From Xestospongia bergquistia (taxonomy: Eukaryota; Porifera; Demospongiae; Haplosclerida; Petrosiidae): 64,000 nucleotides of DNA. Within the stretch, counting starts at the first letter, position 1. Every line of letters begins with the position of its first letter. The notes under the pieces were generated by a model. The model made no database searches, was not told the DNA's origin, and worked only from the letters and a program-made list of their open reading frames with translations. The stretch spans positions 5,606,301 through 5,670,300 of the forward strand of contig OZ014423.1 of NCBI GenBank assembly GCA_963965975.1. The letters are read 5' to 3'. A program made the position numbers and the translations under genes. This document shows, piece after piece, positions 4,661-64,000 of the stretch.

Positions 4661-4763
4661 TATTATCTTCTTTTTATTAACAATTTTATATAATCTATCA
4701 ATTAATTATTTTTAAATGCAGGCGAGAATTATTTGCATTCATCAACCACAATTTCAAATCATC

Positions 4764-5456: not shown

Positions 5457-5895
5457 TTTGTTTGGTGTTAGTTTTTAAAGTTAACTTTGTAATTTAGTTT
5501 TGGTTTCTTTTTTCACTAATAACAAAATTAAATAATTAATAATTATTAATAGTTTTATTATTCATTGATTATATTCACCACACCTATTTTTGGACTTATC
5601 AAATACAAACATTATACTTTTGACGAGCCGGTAGTTAGACTCTTACCTCTCTCTCTCTCTTCTATTGAACTTGTTAATTCATAAGAAAGTAAGTGGATAT
5701 ACTTAGATTACTATTCTATGAAATTACCGTCAGTAGTGTGAGTCACACCCCTTTATTGCTAAACCAGACTACATTATATTATTAGTGCTTATTAGTTTCG
5801 TCAAGGTTGTATTGTAATATGTGATTGTATTATGAATCAAATAACTGTGCATTTATCTCATGCTTATCATCCTCCTTTCACAGAGTCTGATCAAC
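5457..5895. other. Intergenic and 5' leader of the second TMEM86 gene; left edge of the duplicated unit
   Basis: No coding sequence seen. From about 5738 (GTGAGTCACACC) the sequence is shared with the regions upstream of the TMEM86 copies at 13901 and 29786, so this is the left edge of the duplicated block. A strong acceptor (CCTCCTTTCACAG) ends at 5883, so the following gene probably has a noncoding first exon here; its donor is not certain. Confidence 0.5.
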
Positions 5896-13743: not shown

Positions 13744-13900
13744 TGAGTCACACACCTTTATTGCTAAACCAGACTACATTATATTATTAGTGCTTATTAG
13801 TTTCGTCTAGGTTGTATTGTAATATGCGATTGTATTATGAATTAAATAACTGTGCATTTATCTGATGCTTATCATCCTTCTTTCACAGAGTCTGATCAAC

Positions 13901-14596
13901 ATGGAGCTATTCCATCAAGTAGCTGCACTTGTTTACGGAATCCTCAGCTGTTTTTACATGTTCTTTATGATGAGGAGTAATCGGACACACCTCAAAGCGT
14001 TCACCAAGATTTTGCCACTAATAGTAGCAGCTGTTTGTGTTATGTACACAGTAACAAGGAATATTGCTCCACTTGATATAAAGTCTCCATTTTACATGCC
14101 TAAAATGAACATGACCCTATGGGAACTCCTCTTCTCCATGATTGGAGACATATATCTTGTTTATTCCCGTCTGTTTATCTATGGGCTTTTGTCTTTTTGC
14201 ATAGCTCAATGTTTTTTAACATTCACATTGTCCGATGATGGATTTCTTTTTTTTCAAGTTCGGACACCAGAACTGATGTCTCTCCTTTGCATCAGTATTA
14301 TCTCCTTAGCAGTTTTTTATTTGCTTCCTAAGCTCAAATGTGCTATGGCTATCCCAGGTTTTATTTACTGTTTCCTGATTACCATTATGTTTTGGAGTGC
14401 TGTCATGCAAGCCCAGAAACACATCTCTATTGTCTCGGTGTCTGGAGCATTTGGTGCTGGAGTGTTTTACATCTCTGATTTGGTGTTGTCTATTAATAAA
14501 TATGGAAAGCAAATTCCAATGGCTGATGTTATCATTATGATAACATACTATATTGCTCAACTTGTTATTCCATTGTCTGTTATATATTCTGAATAA
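13901..14596 (+). CDS. TMEM86-like protein (unit B)
   Basis: 231-residue copy almost identical to the one at 5896. Differences seen: Phe to Leu in NIAPLDIKS, Ile to Thr in QCFLTFTLS, loss of one Tyr codon (VFYLLPK against VYFYLLPK), Val to Ala in MQAQKH and Thr to Ile in IIMITYY. SMIGDIYL and YISDLVLS motifs are kept. All changes are in frame, so the gene looks functional. Start chosen at MELFHQ after the CAG acceptor, as for the other copies. Convergent with ANTXR-B. Confidence 0.87.
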   Translation: MELFHQVAALVYGILSCFYMFFMMRSNRTHLKAFTKILPLIVAAVCVMYTVTRNIAPLDIKSPFYMPKMNMTLWELLFSMIGDIYLVYSRLFIYGLLSFCIAQCFLTFTLSDDGFLFFQVRTPELMSLLCISIISLAVFYLLPKLKCAMAIPGFIYCFLITIMFWSAVMQAQKHISIVSVSGAFGAGVFYISDLVLSINKYGKQIPMADVIIMITYYIAQLVIPLSVIYSE

Positions 14597-40870: not shown

Positions 40871-42404
40871 ATGTTCTTCACTAAAAGATGGACTTTGCAC
40901 CTGTTGTTTGTTTTACTGCTTGTGTCAGGGCGCCATTGTGTAGATCACTGGATCGACTGGAACTTGTCAGGTGTTCAAGCTATAAAGTAAGTCCATTAGA
41001 AGATAATACCAAATTAAAAAGCTCAAAAGTTACTAGTTAGCCTTTTAAGCTTACCAATTTACACAGAGTAGTAAGTTTAGCTTAATCAAATAAGACCAAT
41101 TATCAATGCATTGTTTTCTCATCGAACTCCATGCAAATTTTAATATCTTTACGTATAATTAAATTAAAGGTCAATAGTCGGTGCAGATCACTACTTTGTA
41201 TGTTTGTAGAAATTGTCTTTCAATTCCTTTCTGAAACATTTCCTTTATAATACTTACATACAAATGTGTTCATACATCTTTCTGACCTGCTATATTGTTA
41301 TTGTCTTTTTATTTACATAATGTTTGCCATCATCTGGAGTCTTTCTCATCTATATTGTTGCACCATTTCTTCCAAATATAGTATGTTAATATTTGTGCTA
41401 AGACATGATATCCACCTGGTGCTAACTAAATTTGTTACCTGTCCAAAATTGTTAGCGAGTACCTTTCACGTTTTTTGATGTTGATAGTGAGATTGGATTG
41501 TGCCCCTATATTATTCCCCTGTGCCTATTAAGAATTATTTTTCCCTTTTCAGGTGGTCACAAGATCAGGTAATGTTTCTGATATTGTTGACACCTGGTTC
41601 TTAACGCAATATCTTTTATAATGTTATCGTTGAGTACAACCTTATCTATTTAAAAATAGTTATCTGTTGTAATCAATACTATTGTTATTAATCAGTTGTC
41701 CATCTACATTATTTATAATGTAGATGGACAACTAACAATTAGAAGCTATGTACTTCAGTAACTATATTATAGTTACTGAAGTACATAGCTTCTAATTAAA
41801 CTACACATAACAGCTACAGTGTTTTACATGTACCGGTATGACATGTTTTAAATGTATGACAGCTATCGTCTTATTGTTTACACTTAAACACTTAATGTCA
41901 ACATCACTTGTTTTCATACTTGTCAACATCTTTTTATGAAATTGATTAACTAGAGACAAAACTAGCACTTTAGACAATGATGCTCTTCATATATAATAGA
42001 TAATAGTAGATGACCTTATTATAAAGAAAATATTACAAAAATTCCCTGAGCCCTGACAGTATTACTTTTCTCATTAATAGTAATACACAATATAATTAGT
42101 AGTAGTAGTAGTAGTATGATGAGCATCGTTACTATATATAGTAGCAATAGTTACATTGTTACTATATATAATTACAATGTTATCTTATGAGAATTTGAAA
42201 ATCAACTAAAAGTTATTGTAATGAGTAACTTATCACAGTTTGTTGATACTTTCAGTTCTTTCAGCTGTCAATGGTAGTATTGGCTTTATCCTTATATGGA
42301 TGTATCTATATATAGAATAGAACTATCTATTTATAGAATTATTATTAAACATTAAAACAGGAAACTGTAGAATAATATTGTAATATGTAACATGTACCCA
42401 ACTG

Positions 42405-42445
<41 letters not shown>

Positions 42446-44433
42446 CTTTCTTAGTCATAGGGTTGATGTCAACCTGAAAGACACTGTTAGACTAAATTGC
42501 TTTAACAACCAAAGCACTGTAACTTATTTTTCTTCATCATCTGATTTCATTGGTTGTGTTGTTAATTCCAACAACACCTTAGAAAGAGGTCAGTAGAAGA
42601 TATAATAAAATAAATAAAGTGAATAAAGAGACATGTTGTTATATTATAGGTCACTGTGGTAATGCTGTAATAGGAGGAGTAGTGACATTAACAATACATG
42701 GAGTTTCTTTACCTGGAAATGTTCCCTATGCTGTAAATGGCAGTTATAACTTCACAAGTGTCAATAGTGAGTGCTATTTTAAAAATGAACACTGTATGAG
42801 AAAATAGTTTTGTAATAAAATATATTTCAATAATTTTATATAAGTAAAAATTTTAATGCAAAAAATTTGCAACATTAATCCTTCACTCACATACATAATA
42901 TTATACTTCATGATAAATTGTTTTTGAAAAATAAGTGCAATTCACAAAAATCATGAAATAATTTTACCACAAAAATAGTCACACATTGCTATATCTTTAA
43001 ATGTTTTTGTATACTAATAGATGGTGAGTGCGCCAATGGTCTCTGGTTGACTGTTAGAGTAGTTGGTATGTGGTTTTCTTGATATTTGCAAGATATTATT
43101 TTTCTATCACTCTGTAGAGCACCCTCCCTCGATCACACCAATCACACCAACACATACATTCACAGCAACATTACCCACAGCAACATTACCCACGTCAACA
43201 TCGTCAATCACATCCACTACAAGCCTTGAAACTTCAGGTACTGGGGCAACAGATAATAGCATGACAGACATATTAGTTTCAGCTGTTAAGACTACTACCT
43301 CTACTGATTATGCTACAAGTGAGGCACAGTGTGCCAATTATTAATTAATTAATTAATTAATTAATTAATTAGGATAAATAATGTATTGTAGGTATTTGTT
43401 GTTCTAAATTGTTAAATTGTAATCGCAACATTTATATTGATGTAGTGATGGTTTGTTTTCATACAGATACTCAAAGACCTACTCCTACTGTTGGTGGAAA
43501 AAAAGAAGGAAATTATAACTTTTTTTCGAGTTGGCCCCTTGGAGCTCAAATTGGATCATTAGCTGGAGTTATTGCTGTTTTTAGTTTAGCATGTTTGGTT
43601 TGTTTAGTTGGAGTTGGTTTAGTTCTGTATCACTCCAAGAAAAGACGAAAGGAATTTAAAACAGGTACCAATAATAGTATACTAATGGATAGTCTACAGA
43701 TAAAGTAGTAACTTATTAATTTGTTTTTGTAATAATAGGTTCACCTAGTCCAGAGGAAAGTATTCGTCCTTTATTTTATGATGATATTGATTCCAAGGGG
43801 GGAAGAGTTGCTTTAGATGGTACAAAAGAGACAGAGTTGACTAATAACAATATGAAGACAATTTCATCAGAACAAACTAGTAAAGAGAATAATTCTACTG
43901 AAAGTTTGGAGATAAAAAACTCAGCTTATAGTAAAAATGTAACTAATGGACATACTGTCTCAAGTCCTAGTCGTCCACCACCCAAACCACCAACCAGTGG
44001 TCCATTGCGTCCTCCACCACATAAGCCAACTAACTCTGTCAAAGAACTTAAATCTCTTCCTGCATCTTCTAAACCACTTCCTGCATCCTCCAAACCAACT
44101 AACACTGGTCCTGCTTCTCTCCCTGCTGTTAGAAACTCTCCTAAAGCTACTGCTACAGTGACTCCACCACATAAGCCAACTAACTCTGTCAAAGAACTTA
44201 CATCTCTTCCTGCATCTTCTAAACCATCTTCCAAACCAACTAACACTGGTCCTGCTTCTCTCCCTGCTGTTAGAAACTCTCCTAAAGCTACTGTTACAGC
44301 GACTTCCTTATCAGTACAATATAAGTCAAGAAGACAAGCACCAGCACCTCCTCCTTCTTTAAATAACAAATCTAATAACAAAACAAAACCACCCACTAAT
44401 AAACCCACTAATAATGCATTAAGAAGTATATAG
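40871..44433 (+). CDS. Single-pass membrane protein with proline-rich tail, family unrecognised
   Basis: Exons: 40871-40986 (signal peptide, hydrophobic LLFVLLLVSG), 42461-42588 (or from 42455), 42650-42766, 43021-43065, 43118-43318, 43467-43664, 43739-44433; together about 499 codons, in frame. The ectodomain has a small Cys-containing region (VRLNCFNNQ, FIGCVVN, HCGNAVIGG, GECANGLW), possibly Ig-like but not recognised, then a Thr/Pro stalk, a transmembrane helix (AGVIAVFSLACLVCLVGVGL) with KKRRK stop-transfer, and a cytosolic tail rich in PxxP motifs with a duplicated stretch (PPHKPTNSVKEL ... PASLPAVRNSPKAT). The tail suggests SH3 or WW ligands; the function is unknown. A possible 16-nt microexon at 41553-41568 would break the frame and was left out. 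Confidence 0.7.
41694..41797. repeat. Two adjacent perfect palindromes in an intron
   Basis: First: arms 41694-41712 and 41715-41733 (19 bp, 2-nt loop). Second: arms 41737-41766 and 41768-41797 (30 bp, 1-nt loop). They are 3 bp apart and unrelated to each other in sequence, inside the first intron of the orphan membrane protein gene. Confidence 0.94.
42409..42442. repeat. (TC)n dinucleotide run
   Basis: About 34 bp of uninterrupted TC/CT just before the acceptor of the exon at 42461; it extends that intron's polypyrimidine tract. Confidence 0.95.
43340..43371. repeat. (ATTA)n tetranucleotide run
   Basis: About eight ATTA units in the intron after the Thr/Pro stalk exon. Confidence 0.9.
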
Positions 44434-44821
44434 CTTTGATCCATACAGGTTTAGATCCTTTTTAATAGCATTGAATGGAGTAATGATTGACCGAAGTGAT
44501 AATTATTTTCTGCATGTCTATATCTCATGATTGGTATTTGTTATATAGATTTATTATAGCTGATGTCTTCATTGATCCCTGTCATTATATTTATGTAATA
44601 TACTATTAACTATTATATTATACTTATTTTAAATGATCTGCTTATTAAAATGTGACTGCTTGATGACTTTTATTACACACAGAGATAGATATAAAGAACT
44701 CAGTAGTCATATATAACCAATGTTTGACTTGTAAACTGTGAGCAGAAATATTAACAAACTTAAACAGAATAGTGCAATCATTAATTAACTTATTAATTTA
44801 TAAATAATTAATAAACAATTG
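44434..44821. other. Convergent 3' spacer
   Basis: AT-rich 3' UTR region between the stops of the orphan membrane protein gene (plus) and the first kinase-less receptor gene (minus). No other feature seen. Confidence 0.5.
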
Positions 44822-45505
44822 TTACGTAAATGTCATGCTCCTATCTATGTAATCTATAGATTGTTCCCTATAGACTTGATGTCTCCTCTTACAACACATT
44901 AATATTGCAATAATTAATATAATAAACAGTCCAATGTTAACTATTACGATTATTGGAGTAACAGTCCACAATAATATTAGCCATAGATTAGTAGAAGAAG
45001 CTGTGATGATAATAAAACATTTTATTGCTATATTATTAGTAGCTCTCATACTACTTACTGGATGGTGTTAATGTAGGTGATATAGATGGTGTTGGTATGG
45101 AAGTCACATACAGTAAACTAGGAGGGATTGTAGGTTGGTAGTCCTTGTTACAGAGGTCACTGATGTTGCAGCATTTATATACAAATGCAATATTATCATG
45201 TGTCTTGTGGACATTACCATTACATAAGCCACTTGAATTACTTTTACTAAGTCCTAGTCTAACATCTAATTTAGTGAAGCATCCAAAAGCAAAATCATGT
45301 ATCTTTGTGTCAATATGAAGTATTAATCTTGCATAACACAGTACTCCTGTGCAATTTGTTGCAAAACACTCGTTATCACAGTAACAAGTAATAGCATAAC
45401 CTACAAGCAATATATATTAAACATTTTTATATAATGTCACTATTTACCTCTGGTAACCAAGAAATGAAGGAGCAGAAACAAGGTTGTCAATACAGTAGTT
45501 CTCAT
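44822..45505 (-). CDS. Kinase-less TGF-beta receptor-like protein 1 (pseudoreceptor-type)
   Basis: Exons 45505-45448 (signal peptide MRTTVLTTLFLLLHFLVTRG), 45400-45059 and 45000-44822; total 579 nt, 192 residues, in frame. The ectodomain has the Cys pattern of type I TGF-beta family receptors (CYCDNEC, NCTGVLCYARL, FGCFTKLDVRLGL, KCCNISDLCNKD), followed by a Thr/Pro stalk, one transmembrane helix (LWLILLWTVTPIIVIVNIG) and only about 25 cytosolic residues (CCKRRHQVYREQ), then a stop. There is no GS box or kinase. This is the architecture of BAMBI. The ectodomain is closest in this window to that of the receptor kinase at 55942-55592. Dominant-negative action on TGF-beta signalling is inferred. 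Confidence 0.85.
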
Positions 45506-47040
45506 CATAGACAAGAGAAAGAAATGATGTTGAGGGAGGAGGTGAGATATAAAGGGGAGGAGAAGAGAGGGGATATTCATACACATCAGAGAGTAACTAT
45601 TATCATCATGACATCATCATGGTAACATTTAACCATCACATCCTGTGTGGTGGATTCTAAGAACAACTTTATCAAATAGTTGAGAGGACACATAGTTATA
45701 TCAATCTACTTAAGAAAATAAAAATCTTGACTTATATGTATGTAATGGTGATAATAGCTCACTCTTCTATTATTATATAAGACAATAATTAGTCAACTGC
45801 TGATATGACATATTATTAAAATATTAATATGGATACATATTTTTGAAATAGCTCTCTTTATTTAACTCCTTATTGTCACCATCAATAATAGTATGTATTT
45901 TAAACACTACATAGTAATGGATGTGTTTTAAAGACACTACACTGGAAAGAAATAATTGATATATAATTACTACAGAACATTGACTGCATAAGAATTACTC
46001 CATACTAATTGAATCAGACAGTAATCTTTATTCATATACTATATATGGTTTAATGGTATGGTAAAGGGAAGCTTACAATACCTGATACTCCTATTACTAT
46101 TACAGTGTCTTTGTAGTATAAAATTTGCAAGAGTTGTACTGTTGTAATGTATCCAGTATATCATGACATCATTGCTATAACTTATGTGATTTAACAATCA
46201 ACCTTTGCTGTATTTGATATAGATCTTATTAAAATAATTGTTAATATTATTTTTCTTGTAGAATGTAAGCTATGTCAATAGTTTATTTGACCACTTATGT
46301 ATAAGAATTACAGTAGTTTTTTCATTCTAAACAGGAAGTAAGTATGATTGGTATCAACATATGGAATTGCAATCATGTAATGACAAGGAGATCACAACAA
46401 ATGGTCCACAACAGGAATACTATTACTATCTGGTATATTGTGTGATGACAACATTCCCAGAATTATTATAAATGCATAGACTCCCTCCATATCAAATGAA
46501 TATTGTTACATCAAATTACACCTGTGTCAATATATCATAGAACAGTTTAATTTATAGATTGTATAATTGTTATACACAAGTATCCCAGTGTATTGAACTG
46601 CCACCTGCTCTTTAAATTAGTGAACATAGATGTGATCATTCAGTTAGTCTGAATCATCAAATTGAACATGGCACCAATGGTCATGTTGTGGTTAATAGTA
46701 ACCTAAAGCAAATGCTGTGCTAAATGGATGTTATCATTACAATATAAAAACATAGTCTGAGGTAATTCCATTGTTATCACAACTGACGATTCTACAATTT
46801 GTAAGTAGTACTCCCTTTGTAACAGTTTGGCTCCTCTTAGTCTGAAGCAGCTGTGGTATAGTAACAAACAGATATTCTAGTAATGCTTAGATTAGAAACA
46901 CACAAGGGAAGAAGCCACAGGAAGTCCCTTTCATAACTTGTGTGTCATATATTTCTGTCTCTTTATTCACTTTTGTGTACTATGACACAGTTTTTGTAAC
47001 TACTGAACTCTTTCTCTCTCCCTGTCCCTCTCTGTGAGTG
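45506..47040. other. Intergenic region between two divergent kinase-less receptor genes
   Basis: 1.5 kb without a convincing exon. It should contain the promoters of both genes; apart from a purine-rich stretch at 45465-45600 I see no distinct motif. Confidence 0.45.
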
Positions 47041-47808
47041 ATGAAAGCCATTGCCTTGACTACAACTTTATTTCTATTCTTAATTACCAGAGGTAAGTAA
47101 GGAAGCTGTTGAAACAATAGTGTATGTATAAATACTAATTTACTTTGTTCTTATTGTTTGTTATTACTGTAGTTTATGCTATTACTTGTTACTGTGATGA
47201 TGAGTGTTCTAGCACAAAAAATTGCACAGGAGTGTTGTGTTATGCAAGATTACTATTTCATATTGACACAAAGACACATGATCTTGATTTTGGATGCTTC
47301 ACTAGATCAGATATTAGACTAGGACTTGGTAAAAGTAATTCAAGTGGTGTATGTAATGGTAATGTCCACAAGACAGGTGATAATACAGCAATAGTATATA
47401 AATGTTGTGATAACAGGGACCTCTGTAACAAGGACTACCAACCTACAATCCCTCCTAGTTTACTGTATGTAACTTCCACACCAACACCATCTATATCACC
47501 TACATCAACACCATTGTCAACCAGTAAGTGACCACTTAAAATCATTGTCAATCAGTTACTGCACTAATAACTAAAATTTTTGTATACTTGTTCTAAATGA
47601 GATCAATATTTTCCCTATTACAGCTTCTACTTCAACAAGTCCTAATCTATGGTTAATCCTGTTGTGGACAGTTACTCCAGTAATAATAGCAATTAATTGT
47701 GGACTTTTTATTATTTTAACAATTGAAATTGTGTTATGTTGTAGAAGGAAACGGCAAGTTTATCGTGAACCTTCTTTAAATCATCTCGATAGCGTCACAT
47801 TCATATAA
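47041..47808 (+). CDS. Kinase-less TGF-beta receptor-like protein 2 (pseudoreceptor-type)
   Basis: Exons 47041-47092 (signal peptide MKAIALTTTLFLFLITR), 47173-47523 and 47624-47808; 588 nt, 195 residues, in frame. Exon phases are the same as in the gene at 44822. Ectodomain: CYCDDECSSTKNC, CYARLLFHIDT, GCFTRSDIRLGL, KCCDNRDLCNKD; then PTIPPSLLYVTS stalk, transmembrane LWLILLWTVTPVIIAINCG, and a short tail CCRRKRQVYREPSLNHLDSV with stop. The two paralogues share the tail pattern QVYRE-x-S with a following Asp and TF, suggesting the short tail is under constraint. No GS box or kinase. Clearly a local inverted duplicate of the neighbouring gene. Confidence 0.87.
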
Positions 47809-48497
47809 CGACAAGTGTTATTTTTTTAAAAGCATTATATTTTTGTATTAATATTCTATTTTGTTTGCATCAACAATCTTGAAAATGTACATATCTATCA
47901 TTATTTTATATGGCATTTATAATGATACATTATCAAATTAATAGGATTGATGGAGGAGTGATAGTACTAACAAATTGTGTTACATACCACTATTGTTGCT
48001 AAGGATACCTGACTCCCTCCCCCTCTTGTATTTTTTAAAGTAAGATTCAAATTTAAACAGAATTTTAGTAAATTATAATAACATTGTGTAGAGAAATAAA
48101 TGCAATATTATTAAATAATATTATGAACTTTATAGCGTGCAAACAACTACATAAAACAAATCATGGGTAATAATATACCTATGAAAGAAGAGACAATAAT
48201 AGACGAGGGGACAACCCTCTAATTATAATGGAACAAATGACAACCATATATACACAAATACATATATGTAAAAAAAAAAAACAAAAGGACATATTCCTAC
48301 ATTATTAGATCACTGATAAGTAATAACAATTAAGATAACACAATGAAAAGATGCAGAGGCCAAAACAAACACCCTGAACAAGACAAGAAGGAAATGCATA
48401 AAAGTAGTAATACGTGTGTATACAGGTAATGTCACCTAATAAGACAATTTAAACTACATTGATATATCCAGTTCTTTGCAAAAGAACGTAAATTCTT
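47809..48497. other. Convergent 3' region
   Basis: AT-rich 3' UTR and spacer between pseudoreceptor 2 (plus) and G3BP (minus); a poly-A stretch lies at about 48271. No gene seen. Confidence 0.5.
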
Positions 48498-50389
48498 TCA
48501 TCGCTTTGGAGGTTTGCTCGAAGATACTCGGCTAGATTTGGGAACAAATCCCCCGCCACCACCCATTCCAGTAAGAGGAGGCTTACGATTCCCTATTAAA
48601 GAACCCCCTGGAGGTTTTTGTCCCGAGGGGCGCTTCTCTTCAATGTTAAGCTTACGATCATGTAAGTTAATTTGATGATCTAAACGAAGGCCAATGATTG
48701 TATGAACTGATTCTTCGTTGTCAAAAACAACAAAACCAAAGTTCTTTGGATTTATTCTAACTTCAACGATTTTACCATATTTGTTAAATATATTACGCAA
48801 TTCTTCTTCTGTTGTACCGTTTGGTAAATTTCCAACAAAAATTTGGTGAGAATCAGGAGCTGATCTTGTACTTCCCGACATAACTGAGGTGAGTGGTTTC
48901 TTGTCAAATGAACGCTGATCTGGTTTTCTCAGTGGCTTGGGTTCTCGTTGCGGAAGAGCTTGAGAAGTAGACTAAAGTAAATAAAACAATAAAACAATAG
49001 CACAAAATTACACAAAGCATACCATGTTATTAGGAAGTCTGGTTTGAGTGATGGGTGGAGCTGTACCACTTGTCTTTCCTGCTTGTCCATAAGACTGAGT
49101 CTTAGGATACGACCCACTAACACTCTATGCAATAAACAATATGATAACTTTTATAATTAGAAAGACGACTTGTACCTTTAGTTTTGATGCCCAGGTACCA
49201 GGAGGCTTTGTTTGCTCGACAGCCGTGTAATCTTCTGATGGTAGGGAAGGTCCTCCTTCATTTGTCTCTACAGGAAAACTTGACTCTTCAACGACGTGAT
49301 GAGAATCCTCCAGTAAGCCATTACTTTGTAGGCCTTCAGTAGGCTCTATATATAAAAGGCACACAACAGAGACCAGTATAATGATACATTAAAGTGATGT
49401 ACAATCTTAAACTGTTAGTAGTATCATATTCCATATTATAAAGTGCAAGTTTACTTACCCTCATATTGATCTCCCCAATTACTAGAGGAGGGAGGATCGG
49501 GTTGTCCTGTACTACTACTGGGATCAGGAGAGCTTTTATGAGAATGATCAGACATGTTCCCTTCTTGGTGTCTGTACAAGCCTTCATCAGTCATTGTAAT
49601 ATCCTTAGAGGGCGGTCGTTCTACTGCATCCTGCTCGCTGGTCAAGTCATTCACATCAGTATCACTGGTCATATCTTCATCATAAATTTGATAACGAAAA
49701 ATATCATTGTGTATATAATATTTCTTGGGAGATTCTGGGGCTAGTACAAAGGTTTGAACAAACGGTCTCATTGGTTGACCAGCCACAGAAAGTTCTCCTG
49801 TTACTTGGACAACAATACCAAGACCAATATCATTAGCGATAGTAGCATGGCTATCTACTTGACGTATCTTGGTATGTACTTGTTGTAGTCCCAGTGAAAG
49901 TATCTTCTCATGAATGGCCTGAGAGAAAGAGTACAAATGGAAGGTAAACCAAAACAACGAAACAATTTATTAGTTTATTCTAGTCATAAAGAATTCTACC
50001 CTAGCATTATTTGGCACTTTCAATAATCATGTTAACTACACAATAGTTGGATCAAACAATCCGGCACTAATACCAGAACTATGTTGTCCTCCTACAAGGT
50101 ACTTTTCAGATCTTATGAATATCTTTGTACCTCAAAATTGAGGTTTTATTGTAAAAACATGTTACTGAAGACAATCAACTCAAATTATAGGGTCACGAGA
50201 CAAAATTAGTATAATTACCTTCTGTCCTATGACAGGTTCTTCTGTACCCATTTCATGACCACCACGAGCAAATACTGATTTCTCCAAATAGAATCGATGC
50301 ATTTGAGCAGGATCTTTGTGCATTTGTGTATAATACTGCATGACAAAGAGCTCTCCAATCTTCTGAAAATCTAAGTCACCTTTGTCCAT
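48498..50389 (-). CDS. G3BP: G3BP (Ras-GAP SH3-binding protein, stress-granule scaffold)
   Basis: Exons 50389-50219, 49918-49459, 49345-49176, 49124-49023 and 48971-48498. The N-terminal NTF2-like domain ([71 protein letters not shown]) forms the G3BP dimer and client pocket. An acidic, Ser/Pro-rich middle follows, then an RRM ([32 protein letters not shown]) and a short basic Gly/Pro C-terminus ending KPPKR. The classical RGG box is reduced to GMGGGGGF with few RGG triplets. In animals G3BP nucleates stress granules and binds RNA. A noncoding first exon probably lies at about 50845-50895, as a GTAAGT donor on the minus strand faces the start exon. Confidence 0.93.
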
Positions 50390-51008
50390 TTTGTTTGTTG
50401 GTGGGGACAAGCAATGACAACCAGACCACCTCTTGTGAGACACACAAAGTAACAATTACTAGTACGTTATGTTTGGGCCTATCATAAGAGATGAGAGGGG
50501 AAGAACAGGAAAGTTAAGATATTGGTTCCTGAGGTGATAAATGAAAAAGGGAATTGTTACATAACATTATAACTAGTATGGAATATCAGCATAGAGAATC
50601 AAAGACTGACAGAAACGACAATTTTTAAGTTCTGTTCTCACATACAATTGTTCTTACTAACTACTAAGTTAACGAATACTTTCAGATGCTACAAATGCGT
50701 ATAGCAGTTAAAAAAATTAACAATTCAAAGTATAGGACCAGATATAATATACGAAAAGATAGTTCCTCATTTACAAGACTACATTTATAGGCCAACTCTT
50801 CCCTTTTACAATTAAATATACAGAACACCTATAAAAAGACTTACGAATATTACTTGATAAGAAAACTACTTTCGTCCGTACGCCATTTTCGCCATGTGGT
50901 TATTTGCTTCCTCTAATTGCAAGACTACTGCGCATGTGCAACCGCACCTATTGTCTCCTCCCACAGAATAATTACTCTTTATTACGCGATCCTCATAAAA
51001 GACGACCG
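50390..51008. promoter_or_regulatory. G3BP 5' leader and promoter
   Basis: On the minus strand, a likely 5' UTR exon ends with a GTAAGT donor at 50843-50844. Upstream, GTACGCCATTTTCGCCATG (about 50878-50896) contains the CGCCATTTT core typical of YY1-type initiator sites. This also lies just before the orphan plus-strand exon at 51009, so the promoter may be divergent. Confidence 0.45.
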
Positions 51009-52799: not shown

Positions 52800-55700
52800 T
52801 TATGAAAAACACATTTTTAGTTCACAATTCTCTGCAAGTTTGTCCAATTTCTTGCGAATATAAAATGCTGTAGGTCTGGCAGCTGGATCTCTGTACCAAC
52901 ACTCGCACATAATTTTACTTAATCCTCTTAAAAGCTATAATATCAAAAAAAAGAGTTTGATTTCTAAAATTGCTTGCTTATTCAATTATATTCGTTTCTA
53001 GCATAAATAATATATAAAAACTTTTAATTATGATGTATTTAATTATTAGATAGTCTAGTAAAAACATCTGATTAAATATACATGAATTGTCAACTAATTA
53101 GACATGTCAGAGCACAGCTGGGTTATGATATAATATCAAAGAATTACTACATACACACCTATTATATAATATCAAAGAATTACTATATATATACACACCT
53201 ATTATATAATATCAAAGAATTACTACATACATACCTATTATATAATATCAAAGAATTACTACATACATACCTATTATATAATATCAAACATACACACCAT
53301 TATTAAATACTACTTTCTGATTTTTCATCTATAATTTTGTTGAAAACTAAGAGACTATAACAACATGGTACAATTCTTGTTTTGTTTAAAATTTGTTTGT
53401 GGTTCAAAATATGACATGTGATATCGTAGTAACAGTGTAAGAGGAAATACTGACTATATCAACTTATTTCAATCCAAAGGAAATAGGATTAGTGTACCAG
53501 ATGTCCTTTCCCACAGAGTGAATGACTTGTAGGTAGGTAGGTTTACTTACATCACTATTAGTCCATCTATTTGGAATCTCAGGTATGGCATTCTTGTCAA
53601 CAATGATCTCTTTCATGTCTTCAAAGGATGGATCAGCTGGAACTAGAGAATGGAAAGGCACTTCATAGTCTTCAGCTTCTCCTGGAGATAAAAAAGGGAT
53701 AAAAAATCAAAAAGTATAACTTTTAGTAGATTTTAATTAGATCTTGATTATCTATTCAATGGAACATGTTCTATTGCATGGATATGTAAAAATAAATTAC
53801 GAAACAATTAATCACAACCAGATGATTACAACTAAAATAAATAGCATTCCTAATCAATACTGCAATCCATACTGGGCACACCAGAAACCTGTTAAACAAT
53901 AGAGCAGCTGTTCACTATCTAATCAACTCCACACCTACCAATTAAATATATTAACAAACCCACCATTCATAGAAGAGATGAATTGAATTCTTTAACATCA
54001 AATTAATATGATAATAATACAGCTGCTGATAAACACAATTAACAGTTGTACAACATACTAACAAGTAGACCACCTTCTTTTGTCAAATGTGGGTGTGCTT
54101 ATAGACTAACCATTGTTAAACTATTGTCTATTACATCAACTCTTTAACTGCCTACTTACTTTATCTTGTCAAACAATATACATAATAACTACATTTTTGT
54201 AGAAGGTTAGGCCATGTGACTGCTATGCACTCAACACATGTCACATGATAAGTACAATCTGTTAAACAACTTTGAGAACAAGTGTAAGATAAAAGATCAA
54301 GTAAAATTTATTGCACAATTAAAGGTAACAATTAATTTTGTTGACAAAGACTACCACGTGGAAAAGCAGACAAACTGACAGATAGAATGACAAATGGACA
54401 GCATGCATTATACATATTTATAATACAGCTGTTATGGACGTACCTCCATCTTTACATCTCCTGCATATTTCCCACATCACAAGACCAAATGAATATATGT
54501 CTGATCTTAAAAATGACTCAAAATTACAGGTGTTTATACTCTCTGATAATATCTCTGGTGACATATATCGTTTCGTTCCTTGTCGGAGGTTCTCTAGAGT
54601 ATTAAACGTTGGTCTGTTACTGTTTTTAACAATGGCCAGTCCAAAATCAGCTATACAACATGTGTCATCATTTTTAACAAGAATATTCTTTGATTTGATG
54701 TCTCTGTGAGCAATTGATGGCTTCCCTTGAGTACCAGACAACTCTGTGTGCAGATACGTTATCCCTCGACAAGCTGACAAAATAAGTCTCATGGTATTCA
54801 AGGCTGAAAAAGGCTCTCTATGGAGTTCATCAAACAGGGAACCTCGAGGATAATACTGAGTTATAAGCCACAATTCAGTCACACCATTATTCGAAAGCAT
54901 GTCAGTCGCAAAACAAGATAATATGTTCTCGTGGCGAAGATTGACACTATTGTACATGTCCGACTCATGAAACCATGACTGTTCATCTTTAGAGAAAAAT
55001 TTCTTGACTGCATATTTTTCACCCTGATATTTACCAACATACACTTGTCCAAACCTTCCCCCACCAATGGGATCACCTAGAACAATGCTTCGAGCTATTG
55101 TACGCTTTACAAGAAATGGTAAACCAGAACCTGACCCTGACGTACATGTTAATGATATGTCGGAAACTGTGACTGGCACAGGTTCAATTGAGTTTGAAAA
55201 ATTATATGTTGACGTCTGTGTCAAGCACATTTCTTTAGAGTTTTGAAAATTGGAATTAGGATGATTGTGATGATTATGATGGTTATGGTTAGTGTGATGA
55301 AGGACTCCATTTGAGGGTACCCGTCTAGATTTGCGTTTGTGTTTAAAACAGGCTACAATAATGATTGCAATAATGTTGAATATTATGGCACAGGCACCAA
55401 TGGCGACGATTGGAACTGTAATGATAAAAGTAAAGGAAATACCAGCATCGCCTAAAGAGAAAATATATACCACATCACAATAATATTTTGTTAATTAATT
55501 AATGTGACATTTGGCATAAACAGCAATTAGGTGTACATTAAAAACCACATGTCTATCAATATTATGACTACTTAGTATAAACTCATTTTACCTGGACTGT
55601 TGTTTGAAGGTACAATGGCTAGGATAGTGCTAGATGTAGCATATGACGAGTTAAATGGAATTGTGACATTAATATTTTCATTGCAAAAATGTTTATTGTC

Positions 55701-56136
55701 ACAACACTTGTATCTGAATTTGGTCTGGTCGCTCGGGTTAGGATGAACGTCCCCTTTACAAACTCCAGATGAGTTATTGTTGGCCAAACCCAGCCTTACA
55801 TCTTGTCGAGAAAAACATCCATAATCCCAATCGTGTTTATTTGTATCAGTATGTAATATAAGTCTAGCATAGCATACTGTTCCATTACAACGTGAAGTCC
55901 CTTTCGGACACTCATCGTCACAATAACAAAGTAACGATTTACCTGCATATCAAAGCGAGAGAAAGACAATTGAGAAACATAATCTGCAACTAAGCAATAG
56001 CTTGTATATTATATATAATTATATAAATAATTTTAGTTTTAATATTCTCGTTATTAATATTCAGCTTACTTATTTTCGGTAGCAACACGAATATAACGAC
56101 GACAACGGAGATAACAAAAGAACGTCTAATCAACAT
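52800..56136 (-). CDS. TGF-beta superfamily type I receptor kinase
   Basis: Exons 56136-56070 (signal peptide), 55942-55592 (ectodomain CYCDDECPKG, CYARLILHTDT, GCFSRQDVRLGL, YKCCDNKHFCNEN), 55451-54444 (transmembrane, His/Asn-rich juxtamembrane, GS box, kinase), 53681-53551 and 52934-52800. The GS box reads TSGSGSGLPFLVKR. Kinase motifs: GGGRFGQVY, YAVKK, AHRDIKSKN, IADFGLA, GTKRYMSPE, SDIYSFGLVMWE, then CECWYRDPAARPTA and the C-terminal IRKKLDKL. The beta4-beta5 (L45) loop region is TDMLSNNGVTELWLI, different from the ADNKD form and nearer to the ALK1/2 style. The juxtamembrane segment (HHTNHNHHNHHNHPN, about 55300) is unusually His-rich. Phosphorylates receptor SMADs in the family; the substrate class here is inferred. 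Confidence 0.92.
53129..53290. repeat. Minisatellite, about 37-bp period
   Basis: Four to five tandem copies of TATTATATAATATCAAAGAA followed by TTACTACATACATACC, with small variations, in the intron before the last exon of the minus-strand receptor. Confidence 0.85.
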
Positions 56137-56429: not shown

Positions 56430-59400
56430 ATGCCTCGTTTGTTGTCTCTATTGTCTTTTGCCTTGTGTCTGATATGGATCAATAGCGTTGACTGTAAGTT
56501 TGTCAATTACCACATTGACATTATACTATATAATACACATCAATAAACTTTTTTTATTATTTATTTATTATTGTCATCTCTTCTTGTGTAGGTCTGACGT
56601 GTTACTGTAAGAATACAGATTGTAATAATTTAATAACATGTACAAATGATAATCCCTATTCATATTGTGATATCACTATTGATAGTGCAGGAAACGTTTA
56701 TCAAGGCTGTGAAGATGATATCGCTGACTATCAAACATGTACAGGAACGTTACATGTTAATCCTGGTGCAAATTTCCCTTATTATATGTGCTGTAGAACT
56801 AGCAAATGTAATTCACTTGAGGCAATCCAAACTTCATCTCAAATATTTCCTAGTTCATCTTCTTTACCTGTTTCTTTATTAACTTCATCCTTACCTGTAA
56901 CTACTATAACACCAACTAGTTCCATTCTAGCAACCACAGCACTTTTTGCCTCTGTCCAACAAACTACTGGTAAGTTATCTCCCTCTCTTTTTATTATCAA
57001 CAATAACTTACAATTGTTTATTTTGGTATTATTTTATGTCATTGATGATGTCGGTTATTGATGTAATGAACATATAATGTAAAGTTATCATTGACTTCCT
57101 TTCAATACCCTATATACACATTGTTAAGAGCATATGACATTCTCTTATGATGCATTCTATTTTTATTATAGTTACTTCAACTCTAACTATTTCTGGCACA
57201 GACTTTCCTTCCCTTACCACTGACCCAACAGATCAGTCATCTTCGGGTGTAGCCCCGTCATATGCTATTGCTGTCATTGTTGTATTGACCTTCTTATTGG
57301 CTGTATTTATTATCATAATAGTCATTGTCTTTTTCCTACACTTCTATCCAAGACATATCGTAGGTGTTGCTGTTCCTATAGAAAGTGATGGCACACCAAC
57401 ATTATCTACTATTAGCTGTGGTGAATTCTCCAGTGATAAAACTCTACATGATCTGCTTGATGGTACAACTTCAGGTAGTGGTTCTGGGTTGCCGTTACTT
57501 GTCCAACGTTCGGTGGCTACTCAGGTCACTCTTTGTGAGCTTGTTGGAAAAGGTCGTTTTGGTGAGGTCTGGAGAGGAAGTTATAAAGGAGATAATATTG
57601 CTGTCAAGATTTTTCATACCAAAGAAGAGGCATCCTGGTTTCATGAGGTGGACATTTATCAAACTTGTCTTATACGTCATCCCAATATACTCCGTTTTGT
57701 AGCAGCTGACAATAAAGATATTGGCATAGCAACACAGCTTTGGCTGATTACAGAATATTGTAACTTGGGTTCTCTGTATGAGGTCTTGTTAAATCAGACA
57801 TTAGATGAAAAAACACTACTAAAACTTTGCTGCACTGCTGCTAGTGGTCTTGCCCACTTACATTCAGAGATCAATGGTACAGAAGGAAAGCCAGCTATTG
57901 CACACAGAGACATCAAATCACGTAACATTTTAGTCAAACAAGATTACTCCTGTTGCATTGCTGACTTGGGACTTGCCCTTAGATATAATCGAAATACAGA
58001 TACTGTAGAGGAACCACCAACTAAACGAGTTGGAACAAGACGTTACCTCTCCCCTGAGATTTTGGATGACACCATGGATACAAAAAATTTTGACTTCTTT
58101 AAACGGTCAGATATGTATTCTTTTGGACTAGTGCTCTGGGAGATTGCCAGAAGAGGATTGTGTGCTGGTAAGAAGTTTTTACATACTTAGATTTTTATCT
58201 TTACACCACTTTTATAATGTGCTTTTCTCTAATATTGTATACATGTAGTGTATTTAGAGGTTTAAGTTATATGCATGTTACCGATGTAACTGTTGTAATT
58301 ACATAAACTTTGTAACATGGAGGCGTGGATATTAGCACAATACAACAACAAAGTGTATTTTACTATGAGAACCTAGAAGGATTAGTTGAATATCGTAGTA
58401 TGTGTTTTAAAATGGGTATGAGTTTGTTATCAAATGCATACCTGACAGTGAAACATGTTGTCATTGCTTAGTAGAAAAATAGCTTATTAGCTAAAGTGAT
58501 ATTAGTAGTCTAATTTAGGGAAGCCAGTGATACAGACTGTGGCTTAAAACTTCCTCCCTCTCCTGTGGCCATTGTCTCAACTGGCCTAATTTTAAACCAA
58601 CTTGTTGGTGTAGTAAAGGTACAGCTCCTTTTGTGTGGTCAGACATTAATTGTTGTAGGTTTATAAGAAAATTCCATTTGGTGTTTTCAATGTTTTGACT
58701 GTACTTTGTCCTCTCAACACTTGTAAAGGAACTTGACACATTCTATAAAATATTGTTGTATATACAAACATTGCAAAGCTACCTGGTTATTAGTGCACAT
58801 TCCTGTGTAGAATTTTTAACTTCATCAACACTGTTCTTATTAAGGAAGCTGTGACCAAGATGTTAAGGATATGTAATCAACTCTGGTATTCTGTTCATAA
58901 GATTACCCTTTATTTCTATAGCCTCTCTTGGCTATGTATGAGAGCGTGTTAAATACTAAATTTGGAAGCATGTGTATATTAGAGAGATAGAATGATTTTT
59001 ATTGGATGGATGGATGGACACACAAATGTCTATGGGTAATAGTTGGATGAGATTGTTTGTCTGGCTATGATTATAGATTGATAGTTGTTGATTACAAGTT
59101 TGCATTTAGTGTATTCTGTACAAAGTGACATTGTAATGACATTGCAGGTGCATTTCTTCCTTGAAAGCCTCCATAATCATTTGTACCTGCTAAAGATCAC
59201 TCTTGTCATCTCCTTGGCAGCTAAAATCTATCGGAAAAGCATCAATGTCATTGACACTGTTAAACACTTGTAGAACAGGTACACAAGATTTGCTCGAATC
59301 ATCTTAAATTCTACAATAAGGGCATACTAGAAATAACTTAAAATATACTGAGTGAAATGTACTACTATCAGTTGGATTACTATTACAATTTTAACTTAGA

Positions 59401-62400
59401 ATACTTCAGTGCATTTTTGTGTAGGTTATCTTTACTCTAGTTATGTGGAGTGAATCAATTGTCCACCTTTCCTTTACATCATCAGAAAAGTACAATTATA
59501 TGTAGCTAGTTGACTCCTACTGTGTTAAGTAGCTAATGTTGACTGACCACATATTAAGCATATATGTCTGCTCACAGGCTATGTTATACTCCCTTTCTAC
59601 TGAGTATGTGTTTAGAACAGGCTCTACCTACGTTGTTTACAGTTAATATTGCCAACACTCTTATTAGTGTGTGAGTAACCTGAGCCATTACAACAACTCG
59701 TGACATTAGGATCTAACAATAATATATATTTATTTCCTTTGGGTATGACTTCATACAATGATGTGTTAATATTGTAGTGGTGTGTTGCCAAAATGACTTA
59801 GCCACAAAGGAAGTATCACTTGTTTCTTTTCTTACTTGTTCCTTCTATCTTAAATTGGCTAGAGAGAGAGAGAGATAAACACTTGGATTCAGAAAGAATA
59901 CATACATTTGCAGACTTATACAGATCATATTTTGCCTGAGTGGGTGATATGACCTTCTGATAATGCAGTGAATTATACTTTATATGGTCTCTCAATTAAA
60001 ATATTAGAGGTAATAGACTAGTGAATTCAATTGACTCTTTGCACCTGCACCAACTGATAACCACAATGCCAGTTAGCATTGTATGACTTATTAATATGAT
60101 ATAGATAGTAAGCTTTCTTGGCAGCCATCTAATATTGTAACATTATCATGTTAAAATGTCACTCAGGAATGTTGAATATTATTGTTAATTTTGTTAAATT
60201 AAATTTGGTAATCTGTTTTATTAAATAGTAACAAACAATTGTAGGCAGTATGGTCTAAAAAAATTTGGCACAACATTTAATAGATTACCAAGTAAAACCT
60301 CAGTTAAGCTTACTCATTATATTTGGTTGAAGAGACCACTCTATTCAATTTCAGAGGCTTTTGATATCTTTATTAATAGGTGTTGAAGTGTGTCTTATCT
60401 CGTTTGGCTCACAAATCAGAATTAAATAATCTCTTCCCACGAAACAGAATGTGTTAATAATGTAAATATATTCCTGATCTCATAAACCATACCACTCTGT
60501 TTAATGTAATCACTTATTTCATCACTGTGAGAAAGTGTGGTTAGTGTAGGTGTTAAGTGTGCTAGTGTGTGAGTGTGGTTAGTGTAGGTGTTAAGCATGC
60601 TAGTGTGTGAGTGTGGTTAGTGTAGGTGTTAAGCGTACTAATAAGTTTTATATTTTGTATGCCTGATAAGGATTATAATATAGTAGGGGGTTAAGTTAAA
60701 TATAATATAATGACAAGTTATAAACTTGTATAGTCAGCAGTATTCAGAATCATAATCACAGGAATAATTACTATGTATTATGGACATTGTATCATTTTAT
60801 GTTATTATATTGTATATAGAAGTTGTATATGTAAAACAAACAATTGTACTTATGTCAATTCACTCATTGGGGTGTAGTGAACATCAGTATGTACCTGATA
60901 ATTGACTGATAGGTTTACTGGTGCCAGATCAATTACTTACTACAAGCAAAAAAATTAGGACAATTGCTGTGACTTCAATGATTTAAGACTACCTCCTAGG
61001 AGTATTAGCAGTCACTGGTTGCTGTGGTAATTGTGTGGTCACAGTGTTGAATGTGTTGACTTCAGTTAGCTTTGAAAAATATCTTTATCTCTTAACACTA
61101 TATAAATAGTAGGATTGTGTTATATACACATCTGTGACATTATTCTATCGACATCAACAGTAGAACACACACATTAGAGCATTTTTTTGACTATGCATAG
61201 ACAGCTGTAATATTTGACCAATAAGATATCAATAATGAGAACATACCCTGTAAGATTGATATGATATGCAATATATGTCTCAGATTTACCTTACATGTAT
61301 CTGCGTACATCTCCCACATATGGTATTTGTAGTAGATGTCGGAGTAAACGTTTAGAGAAGGGTATCATGTGATCAGATAGGTAGTATCATGTGATGTTTG
61401 TTATGTTGAGACTCTATAACAACAAGAAATTTGAAGCTATCAGTACATATTTCATGCATCAGCAGCTGCCTAACATCAAAGTTGTTGTTGAAAGGAATTT
61501 AATCAAGATAGTGTTTGTTTTACTATTGTTTATGTACTTAAAAGTGATGATGTTTCAAAGATGAACTTATGGTTGTCAAACATGAGACCAAGAAAACATG
61601 TCACTCACTTACTTACTAGCCAATCAGTACCATATGAGGCAGTGCCTTGTTATCTCAATATGATAAGAGCTACATCATGTAGTGTGATTAGGGATTTACA
61701 CATTTTGTAACTATTGAATAGGTTTTATTTCCTTTATGGAGTATTATATAATGTAGTGTGTAATTGTAAACATCCTGAAATCTGATATGGTGAGTGTTTA
61801 CTATATAATATCTAATTATAAACCAATATGATAGAAGGTTATATATAAACACTTTTAGTACCAAGTTTTTGTATTGTGTGTTGACTGTGAGATGAGACAT
61901 AGCTCTCTTTTCTTGATTGTTCTAAGTATGAATTCCTACAAGTTAACTTCTATGATCTATAGTTATCATAGATGTTAACACTATTTTAATCACAAAGAGG
62001 TCAGAAGATTTCTGGCTGGAACACTATTGTCTCATGAGTATGGTTTCAGATATTAATTTCTGACTAGCAATAATAAGATATATATGACACACAACACTTT
62101 GAGGACGCAAGATCAACTTTTGTATGCCAATGCACTAGATTATAGACCAATGCAAAAAGATGATAAAAATTATTGTTTATTTATTAGATATCTCCAGTAA
62201 GACTTCATAAAAATAATCCTCTAATCTTGGACACATACTTAACTTCTAACCACAATTGACTCATTATATCAATACTAACTTATATACAGTCTGTGTATTT
62301 CAGTGTTGCTTGGTGACTTTGTGTGTTCTAAGTTATTTGCTAGCATATTAGAGGTTGACGTGAACTAATGTCTGTTGGCTTCCTTTATCTCTTACCTTAT

Positions 62401-64000
62401 TATATAACTCAACAGAGTTATGCTACATATATTGTTTTGTCTGTGAATACTTTATTATAAAACTAACATTAGTAAATTAACATTAGTGTATTTGGCTAGT
62501 ATTACTGTCTCTAGATACCCTAGTAAGTCAGTTGCATAAAGGTTGCCATAGTTACAATAGACTGTATAATTGGAGGTTTTTATTTTATTATGTAATCAAG
62601 CTGCCAATGTAGTAGTAACTCCATGACAACCAATTTTTATGCTATCCTTACATGTCTTGTGTCAAATCATGAAAGATTTTCCCTTCTCTTTGATATCTTT
62701 GTGCCCTCAATTAGGGAGGGATGTCTAATTTTTTCTTTCTAGTCTCTACAATATCTTTTTTTTTTTATTACAGGCCATGCTGAAGAGTATCAATTACCAT
62801 ATTTCGATTTGGTAACTCCGGATCCTTCTTTTGAGGAGATGAAAAGAGTAGTGGCTATTGACCGAAGAAGACCTGGCTTCCCTAATAGATGGAGTCAATC
62901 AAAAGTAAGAATTTGTCCATTCATTCATTTTATTAGTTAATTAGACTGTCCAATATATGAGTAGTTTGTCTAGTAATTATATCCCTAATGTTATCAGATT
63001 GTTTGCCTACATCACGAGATCAACCAAATACACACACACACACTATTTGAGTTCTTTCCCTGTTAAACCACCAGCTGCTCATTACAAACTGAAAACAAGA
63101 TATTTAATAAATAGTAAACAACAACACATATATATCTTAATTATATAGTTTAGTAATTGTTAACACTTGCATGAATTCCCAATGTAGCAAGGCAAAATAG
63201 GATTATAGAGAGAATATCATGGCTAGGGCGAAGGAATGAAATTTGATATAAAGTGTGGCATTTGCTAGTGACACAAGTTGTAGGAGTTAAGGAAGGACAT
63301 ACATTGCTGTAGTTGTAGGAGTAAAATAAAGTCTAATGTTTTGTTTATACAATAGAATTTGTAACTTGTGTGTTTAATAGTAAGTGATCATAGAAACGCA
63401 ACTTGATAAGGAATGCAACCATTGTAATAATCTAATTTTATAAAAGTTTGTTTTATATTAATATTATGTATTTGTCCTGTCTCAGTTTACAAATTATATT
63501 AGTGGAGTTGATGTCAGTTAATTTGATGTTATCATGTGTAACACCTGCACAAGAGAATGTGAAATGGATATAACAACAAACACTTTACCATATAAAATGA
63601 TATAATGATCACATGCACATTATCAGAACAATTATGGCTACTATAGACTTGATATAATCACCTTTTATGAAGAGAAGTATAAACATTAGATCATTGTTGC
63701 TATGGTTTTGTAGCACCCATATGTTGTTGTGGTCTTATTATAAGAGAATGTGTTATAAGTATGAACTTATTAAATTATATATTGTAAGGCTTTTGTTAAT
63801 TAACAATTTGAGAACAGGTTTGTAAGTCTGGTTTTACTAAATTTTTTATACTAATGTAGAAGGTCAAGAAAACTGAAAGAATAGATGGATGGATGGACAT
63901 AAACTGAATTAGACAGTTGTTAAATAGATAATAGTGAAAAGACGATGATATCAATATAGAATCTGATAGAAATATTTCCCCTAGTATGATTTAGTTCTTT
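56430..64000 (+). CDS. TGF-beta superfamily type I receptor kinase (ALK4/5/7-like), 3' end beyond window
   Basis: Exons 56430-56493 (signal peptide MPRLLSLLSFALCLIWI), 56592-56969 (Cys-rich ectodomain ending MCCRTSKCN, then a Ser/Thr stalk), 57173-58167 (transmembrane, GS box TSGSGSGLPLLVQR, kinase) and 62774-62904 (EEYQLPYFDLVTPDPSFEEM ... PNRWSQSK). The last exon, with the CW-R motif region, lies beyond 64000. Kinase motifs: GKGRFGEVW, IAVKIF, AHRDIKSRN, IADLGLAL, GTRRYLSPE, SDMYSFGLVLWE. The L45 loop region AADNKDIGIATQLWLI matches the ADNKD type of activin/TGF-beta receptors, suggesting SMAD2/3-type signalling (inference). The ectodomain is diverged from the minus-strand neighbour (extra spacing, more Tyr/Asp). 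The 4.6-kb intron 58168-62773 is far longer than the others. Confidence 0.92.
58168..62773. other. Long intron of the plus-strand receptor
   Basis: 4.6 kb of AT-rich intron with no convincing exon on either strand. Small tandem repeats are present (see 60535-60641). The 3' splice site is TTTTTTATTACAG at 62773. Confidence 0.6.
60535..60641. repeat. 38-bp minisatellite, about 2.8 copies
   Basis: Unit GTGTGGTTAGTGTAGGTGTT followed by AAGYRTGCTAGTGTGTGA, repeated head to tail inside the long intron, with one or two differences per copy. Confidence 0.9.
62905..64000. other. Intron of the plus-strand receptor, running off the window
   Basis: Begins with donor GTAAGA after SQSK. No further exon was found before the window end; only AT-rich sequence and GATG tetranucleotides near 63885. 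Confidence 0.55.

Follow-up and report, generated by a model that had tools for sequence, protein, structure and literature searches.

Structure of the Paired Genes

Two small genes, A and B, lie head to head, 1532 bp apart, in the 64,000-nucleotide stretch of the genome of the sponge Xestospongia bergquistia that was analysed here (hereafter, the window). In the gene models, which were built from the sequence, each gene has three exons, and all four introns are of the GT-AG type and in phase 1. The layout of the two products is the same: a signal peptide, an ectodomain with 10 cysteines, a stalk rich in Ser, Thr, and Pro, a single transmembrane (TM) helix, and a short cytoplasmic tail that ends in a stop codon. 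Apart from the hydrophobic N-terminus, each protein has just one further long hydrophobic stretch, with basic residues after it. The tails, of 22 residues in A and 21 in B, have QVYRE in common, and the C-terminal ends are T-F-T in A and T-F-I in B. The two genes share 72% identity over 189 aligned codons, and all coding indels are multiples of three. AlphaFold2, run on the ectodomain alignment (six rows), gave a mean pLDDT of 40.

A preliminary description of this locus had proposed two divergent three-exon genes, and its outer coordinates proved exact to the base, with the stop codons at 44822-44824 (A) and 47806-47808 (B). The common QVYRE and the succession of signal peptide, ectodomain, one TM helix, and stop were also found as described, with a tail of 21-22 residues in place of the approximately 25 claimed. 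Among the ectodomain motifs that it listed, CYARL and RLGL are indeed present in A, B, and the neighbouring receptor R1, whereas its KCC-x-LCN has to be corrected to KCC-x4-LCN in A and B and to KCC-x4-FCN in R1.

Table 1. Genes A and B and the neighbouring full receptors in the window.
Feature	Position	Strand	Description
Gene A	44822..45508	-	three exons, 193 aa
Gene A exon 1	45448..45508	-	signal peptide MMRTTVLTTLFLLLHFLVTR; ends in phase 1
Gene A exon 2	45059..45400	-	10-cysteine type I receptor-like ectodomain and S/T/P-rich stalk; putative gene-conversion tract
Gene A exon 3	44822..45000	-	TM helix, 22-residue tail KRRHQVYREQSIDYIDRSMTFT, stop
AATAAA, possible poly(A) signal	44669..44674	-	~150 nt past the stop of A; consensus match only
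Gene B	47041..47808	+	three exons, 195 aa
Gene B exon 1	47041..47092	+	signal peptide MKAIALTTTLFLFLITR; ends in phase 1
Gene B exon 2	47173..47523	+	10-cysteine ectodomain and stalk; putative gene-conversion tract shared with A exon 2
Gene B exon 3	47624..47808	+	TM helix, 21-residue tail RRKRQVYREPSLNHLDSVTFI, stop
AATAAA, possible poly(A) signal	48095..48100	+	~290 nt past the stop of B; consensus match only
R1, full type I receptor	52803..56136	-	probable parent type of A and B
R1 exons	56136-56070, 55942-55592 (ectodomain), 55451-54444 (TM, GS box, kinase), 53681-53551	-	first four exons
R1 last exon	within about 52934-52803	-	kinase end, assigned by eye
R2, second full type I receptor	56430..62901	+	head to head with R1; traced as far as about 62901
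R2 exons	56430-56493, 56592-56969, 57172-58167 (TM, GS, kinase)	+	first three exons
R2 further kinase exon	near 62773-62901	+	by similarity to R1

When the reading frame of exon 2 is followed into intron 2, it gives SK and then a stop in A, in B, and in the two homologous exons P0002 and P0003 described below (four of four; window positions 45051-45060 and 47521-47531). Retention of intron 2 would yield a secreted ectodomain, and the SK-stop may merely reflect the donor sequence. The plus strand at 42384-44433 carries a neighbouring gene whose product would apparently cross the membrane once and have a long cytoplasmic tail, rich in proline and with an internal repeat; the two frames of it that were tested had no Pfam match over the cut-off.

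Kinship with the Neighbouring Receptor R1

The start codons of R1 and R2 are 293 bp apart, and a Pfam search found a GS motif and a kinase in both. Among solved kinases, that of R1 scores 342 bits with TGFBR1 and 185 bits with the best type II receptor, and that of R2 scores 322 bits with TGFBR1, 309 with BMPR1B, and 304 with ACVR1. The ectodomain exon of R1 is 7.8 kb and its last exon about 5 kb from B; the interval between B and R1 contains a gene on the minus strand that has pieces of NTF2 and RRM domains and that we take to be G3BP-like.

We searched a genome of 146 Mb in 21 contigs, in which the window belongs to contig C13. With the B ectodomain as the query, the search returned only B itself, A (81%), and R1 (56% over 99 residues), that is, three matches among five candidates. 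The claim that the closest full-receptor ectodomain is the R1 exon about 8 kb away was thus borne out. Over the whole ectodomain exon, the identity to R1 is 47% for A and 50% for B; the CYARL, RLGL, and NSSG pieces of R1 and all 10 cysteines are kept in both. Introns 1 and 2 of R1 are also in phase 1, in agreement with the match of exon phases noted previously. In a shuffle test of the TM helix and tail together against R1, B gave p 0.0025 (one of 10 pairs tested) and A gave p 0.20, and the tails alone were not beyond chance (p 0.095 and 0.99). It is plausible that the kinase was lost by truncation of an R1-like gene.

It should be mentioned that the conventional family models perform poorly on these ectodomains. 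The Pfam model PF01064 (Activin_recp), with a cut-off of 20.9 bits, gives 18.8 bits for B (E 0.0032), 16.2 for P0002, 17.9 for P0003, and 16.5 and 19.1 for R2, all below the cut-off, and no match for A (up to E 10) or for the R1 ectodomain. Because R2 falls under the cut-off, though it is a full receptor, the model must be insensitive here. Over the genome, PF01064 found one match, in a gene on contig C9 discussed below, and missed A, B, R1, and R2, so that family searches undercount such ectodomains in this genome. The N-terminal part of R1 has a weak match below the cut-off (E 0.0088) to CD59, which is another three-finger protein. The top PDB match of the ectodomain profile is BMPR1B (E 8.2, non-significant; E 0.78 with B alone), with a similarity that runs through the CC...CNKD..PT.PP end of the ectodomain, and for the R1 ectodomain the PDB gave nothing up to E 10. 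Since the Pfam and PDB matches are weak or absent, R1 included, the type I label of the A and B ectodomain leans on the kinase of R1. In an ectodomain tree of nine rows, which included BMPR1A and BMPR1B and no BAMBI, none of the six inner branches is strong; R1 groups weakly with BMPR1A and BMPR1B and not with A and B (47/59 support), which is evidence neither way.

Beyond this genome, a protein database search with B gave three proteins at E <= 1 (148 candidates). One of them, P0001, is the open reading frame around exon 2 of B itself. The other two, P0002, at 88% to B, and P0003, at 78%, are homologous ectodomain exons on ENA contigs of 17 and 11 kb from other sources. A search with the ectodomain alignment added P0004 alone (E 2.1), which was left unused. 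The alignment of the TM-tail exon had no relative at E <= 10 in the protein database, and scans of the genome-contig and viral-contig databases found none, so the tail can be compared within this genome only.

Absence of a GS Box and Kinase

Neither a GS box nor a kinase is present in the three-exon models of A and B, and a tblastn search of R1 and R2 over 43000-50400 found no kinase remnant around them, which agrees with what had been claimed for the pair. That search returned the ectodomain exons, exon 3 of B (E 0.002, with R1 residues 102-186), and some short stretches of weak similarity. Over the whole genome, the only GS matches are those of R1 and R2 (two matches, four candidates scored). 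With the GS-kinase part of R1 as the query, 150 of 235 candidates in the genome were scored and at least nine reach E <= 1e-10; among those listed, none other than R1 and R2 also has a GS match.

R1 lies upstream of A on the strand of A, which makes ordinary splicing of A to R1 impossible; downstream of A on its strand, the sole kinase match among those listed lies at a distance of 1.1 Mb and lacks a GS match. The third exon of R2 (57172) lies 9.6 kb downstream of B, on the same strand and in the compatible phase 1, so that exon 2 of B could in principle be spliced into it.

Four GS-like matches elsewhere in the window, at 8.3, 16.3, 32.0, and 38.2 kb, were rejected as receptors and are instead Gly-Ser microsatellites, which suggest more units of a repeat. 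Frames of a YhhN-family membrane protein were found at 4716-6591 and 13850-14593 (two tested), and the frame at 13850 is nearly identical to that at 5845.

An Old Pair with a Homogenised Ectodomain Exon

The three exons of A and B have diverged to very different degrees. By the Nei-Gojobori method, dS between A and B is 0.15 for exon 2, 1.0 for exon 3, and 1.25 for exon 1 (17 codons); three other estimators put exon 2 at 0.16-0.18 and exon 3 at 1.09, 1.34, and 0.55. Where both genes encode the same residue, the codons differ silently at six of 91 positions in exon 2 versus 17 of 43 in exons 1 and 3 together (Fisher p 7e-6), and the DNA identity is about 90% across exon 2 and drops in both introns. 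A scan for the tract with the least silent change picked out alignment columns 18-133, where exon 2 occupies columns 20-139, and none of 500 shuffles was as strong. The longest run of silent-identical codons, 27 of 134, is not significant alone (p 0.078), and it is from the tract scan and the Fisher test that the claim of conversion draws its support. Because exons 1 and 3 are strongly diverged and exon 2 is little diverged, A and B are an old pair with a homogenised ligand-binding exon, for which gene conversion between the inverted copies, confined to the ectodomain exon, would most simply account. The idea that the two genes in their entirety are recent duplicates was rejected on the dS of exon 3, which is near 1, and a recent conversion of A or B with R1 was rejected on the exon 2 pS of 0.84 and 0.80. 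The preliminary description saw A and B as local duplicates; the A-B ectodomain likeness is no sign of recent duplication, since exons 1 and 3 reveal an old pair.

Exon 3, which encodes the TM helix and tail, has an omega of 0.158 in a pairwise codon model of A and B (p 1.7e-5 versus 1), and the 21 codons of the tail alone also depart from 1 (p 1.5e-4; the point estimate of 0.008 is saturated and was unused). For exon 2, the same model gives an omega of 0.59, which is not above 1 (p 0.20 versus 1). The Nei-Gojobori omegas with bootstrap ranges are 0.26 (0.10-0.55) for exon 3, 0.29 (0.10-0.75) for the tail, and 0.71 (0.37-1.44) for exon 2. The Biopython maximum likelihood routine is an outlier for exon 3, with an omega of 0.56 and a dS of 0.55, and the other four estimates of omega are 0.16-0.26. 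These values show that the TM helix and tail are maintained by purifying selection and that decay is unlikely, as the preliminary description had argued from the conserved tail. Such selection demonstrates a function, rather than inhibition as that function.

Other Candidate Non-Signalling Receptors

A third kinase-less receptor-like gene lies on the minus strand of contig C9, at about 668.8-667.0 kb. It encodes a signal peptide, an Activin_recp domain (22.3 bits, above the cut-off), a second, weakly three-finger-like domain (13.2 bits, below the cut-off), a TM helix, and a 28-residue tail with a stop. Inspection by eye of about 6.6 kb downstream turned up no frame resembling a kinase, and the locus is absent among the listed matches of the genome search with the R1 GS-kinase. 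Its first ectodomain has its nearest genome matches in B (E 0.019) and A (E 0.075) and its best PDB match in BMPR1B (E 0.05). Two related receptor kinases with EGF-like pieces (by eye) were found at G000:C9:2364000-2373900 and G000:C1:6783000-6792900. They have no GS match, and their VAIK lysine and DFG are unrecognisable (VSIAVYR and ISNF); they are likely pseudokinases and, by inference, type II-like. The kinase-less gene on C9 and the two degenerate-kinase receptors hint at a wider set of non-signalling receptors.

Amphimedon is reported to have three type I and two type II receptors and to lack the diffusible antagonists known from other animals (PMC3169577), and Halisarca to have four type I and two type II receptors, all with a kinase (PMC8235796). 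Sponges are reported to lack noggin, follistatin, CAN-family antagonists, and, Oscarella excepted, chordin; a chordin orthologue in Oscarella is noted in a review (PMC11226491). We speculate, as a possible though doubtful extension, that the sponge lineage built non-signalling TGF-beta receptors repeatedly (A and B from R1, the C9 gene, and the two degenerate-kinase receptors) as a main brake on the pathway. If true, control of TGF-beta signalling by decoy receptors, in addition to that by secreted traps, would have appeared early and been invented repeatedly.

The homeobox complement was also surveyed, with an Antennapedia-type homeodomain sequence as the query. Seven of the 11 matches in the genome lie at G000:C13:145923-186068, on the contig of the window; the best identity to the query is 51%, and several of the C13 homeodomains are, by eye, presumably NK-like. 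Amphimedon has been described as being without Hox/ParaHox-like genes and as having clustered NK-like genes (PMC2515636). On this evidence the genome reads as that of a sponge, probably a demosponge, a placement on which the claim of novelty depends.

Proposed Role and Its Alternatives

In our judgement, A and B are rather probably functional membrane-anchored pseudoreceptors that compete with R1 in a BAMBI-like way and evolved separately. In this view, an R1-like type I receptor gene would have been duplicated locally, within the animal's own lineage, and A and B would retain only the signal peptide, ectodomain, and membrane anchor of the parent. At the cell surface they would most likely have the same binding partners as R1, either its ligands or complexes of ligand and type II receptor; taking the type I seat, and incapable of being activated or of phosphorylating Smads, they would damp the signalling. 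The conserved short tail would probably serve in trafficking or turnover, and gene conversion would keep the two ligand-binding exons alike, with the signal-peptide and tail exons diverging. We infer the expression of A and B, the sharing of ligands, the inhibition, and the role of the tail. The genome has 12 TGF-beta ligand matches as possible targets. Four ligand matches are in tandem at G000:C8:312780-344346, in steps of about 10.4 kb, and three of them are equal in score and frame length, as might be expected of either a recent array or an assembly duplication.

Betaglycan-type co-receptors raise signalling. A and B could likewise be co-receptors or ligand presenters that bind a ligand and pass it to R1 or R2, and a constrained short tail with a TM helix suits a scaffold as well as a decoy. 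The T-F-I end of B, which we take to be of the class I PDZ-binding type, is a candidate contact of this sort, but A ends in T-F-T, so the feature is not common to both; moreover, an ectodomain of the R1 kind would compete for the same site, and no further domain scores above the Pfam cut-off in A or B. We regard this role as unlikely, and still more so a co-option of the ectodomain for self/non-self or microbe recognition or adhesion, in which exon 2 would show conversion and a high non-synonymous share like that of paired immune receptors. The omega of exon 2 is indistinguishable from 1, as such co-option would allow, and an inverted pair with exon-limited conversion resembles the CEACAM paired receptors (PMC2832619); however, this omega is not above 1, the 10 cysteines are kept along with CYARL, RLGL, and NSSG, and the genes adjoin two type I receptors.

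It is very unlikely that A and B are remnants in decay, or that they serve as alternative 5' ends for a kinase receptor, even though the gene models derive from sequence alone and B and R2 share a strand and compatible phases. Frames and splice sites are intact in both copies, with in-frame coding indels; the TM helix and tail are constrained despite about one silent substitution per site; A has, among the matches listed, only the distant downstream kinase match without a GS match; and homologous exons exist in other sources. Slighter still is the chance that A and B are true BAMBI orthologues, retained here from a BAMBI that predates the Bilateria. The overall plan is the same, with a type I-like ectodomain, a TM helix, and no GS box or kinase, and divergence over such depth could mask orthology; the TM-kinase frame of R1, rather than A or B, even has a weak BAMBI_C match (E 0.073, 13.3 bits versus a cut-off of 27), most likely by chance. 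On the other side, neither PF06211 (BAMBI) nor PF19337 (BAMBI_C) matches B at E <= 1 or A at E <= 10. In six-frame searches of the genome without introns, no match to either model is above its cut-off: the sole PF06211 match, on contig C1, reaches 21.9 of 23 bits and contains three internal stops, and both PF19337 matches are on contig C3. With 21-22 residues, the tail is also far shorter than the BAMBI_C model, which has 138 positions, or the cytoplasmic part (residues 189-273) of the pearl oyster BAMBI (PMC5569090), and the nearest relative found is the neighbouring R1.

The case for an origin separate from BAMBI lies in the profiles, the exon phases, and the neighbourhood. BAMBI has been traced to the bilaterian ancestor (PMC2657120) and termed bilaterian-specific (PMC7535936), and it is reported in Nasonia (PMC4218986), the pearl oyster (PMC5569090), and Lingula (PMC13121700). 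Among the literature matches listed, which are partial texts and mostly exclude subscription papers, none describes a BAMBI, pseudoreceptor, or decoy receptor gene in sponges. The preliminary description had taken the pair for BAMBI-type decoys reached by a separate route; the missing BAMBI profile match and the closeness of R1 favour the separate route, and the decoy action is interpretation. What appears to be new here is a BAMBI-independent kinase-less pair that is old and has a young ligand-binding exon. Exon-limited conversion points to selection for, or tolerance of, identical ligand-binding faces with separately evolving tails. If a constrained pseudoreceptor pair did evolve separately, kinase-less decoys would have had more than one origin, and the pair would provide a convenient means of testing how TGF-beta signals are kept in check in sponges.

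Comparison with Known Systems

A and B have the BAMBI-like plan of a type I-like ectodomain and a TM helix with no GS box or kinase. BAMBI itself, the separate gene product that damps BMP/activin signalling in other animals, has, like them, a signal peptide, a cysteine-rich type I-like ectodomain, a single TM helix, and a short cytoplasmic part, and both would be expected to block complexes of type I and type II receptors. Unlike BAMBI, A and B have a much shorter tail and no match to the BAMBI or BAMBI_C profiles, adjoin and most resemble a full type I receptor of their own genome, and are two copies with what appears to be a converted ectodomain exon. With the type I receptor R1 they share the ectodomain exon, the stalk, and the phase-1 introns; unlike R1, they are without a GS box and kinase, and their TM exon ends in a stop. 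The CEACAM receptors have an unrelated fold and an immune role. Their paired and decoy forms resemble A and B in being paralogous membrane receptors with ligand-binding exons kept alike by conversion, which the inverted arrangement is thought to favour (PMC2832619), whereas the conversion proposed here would run between two kinase-less copies, with none involving R1 (exon 2 pS 0.84 and 0.80).
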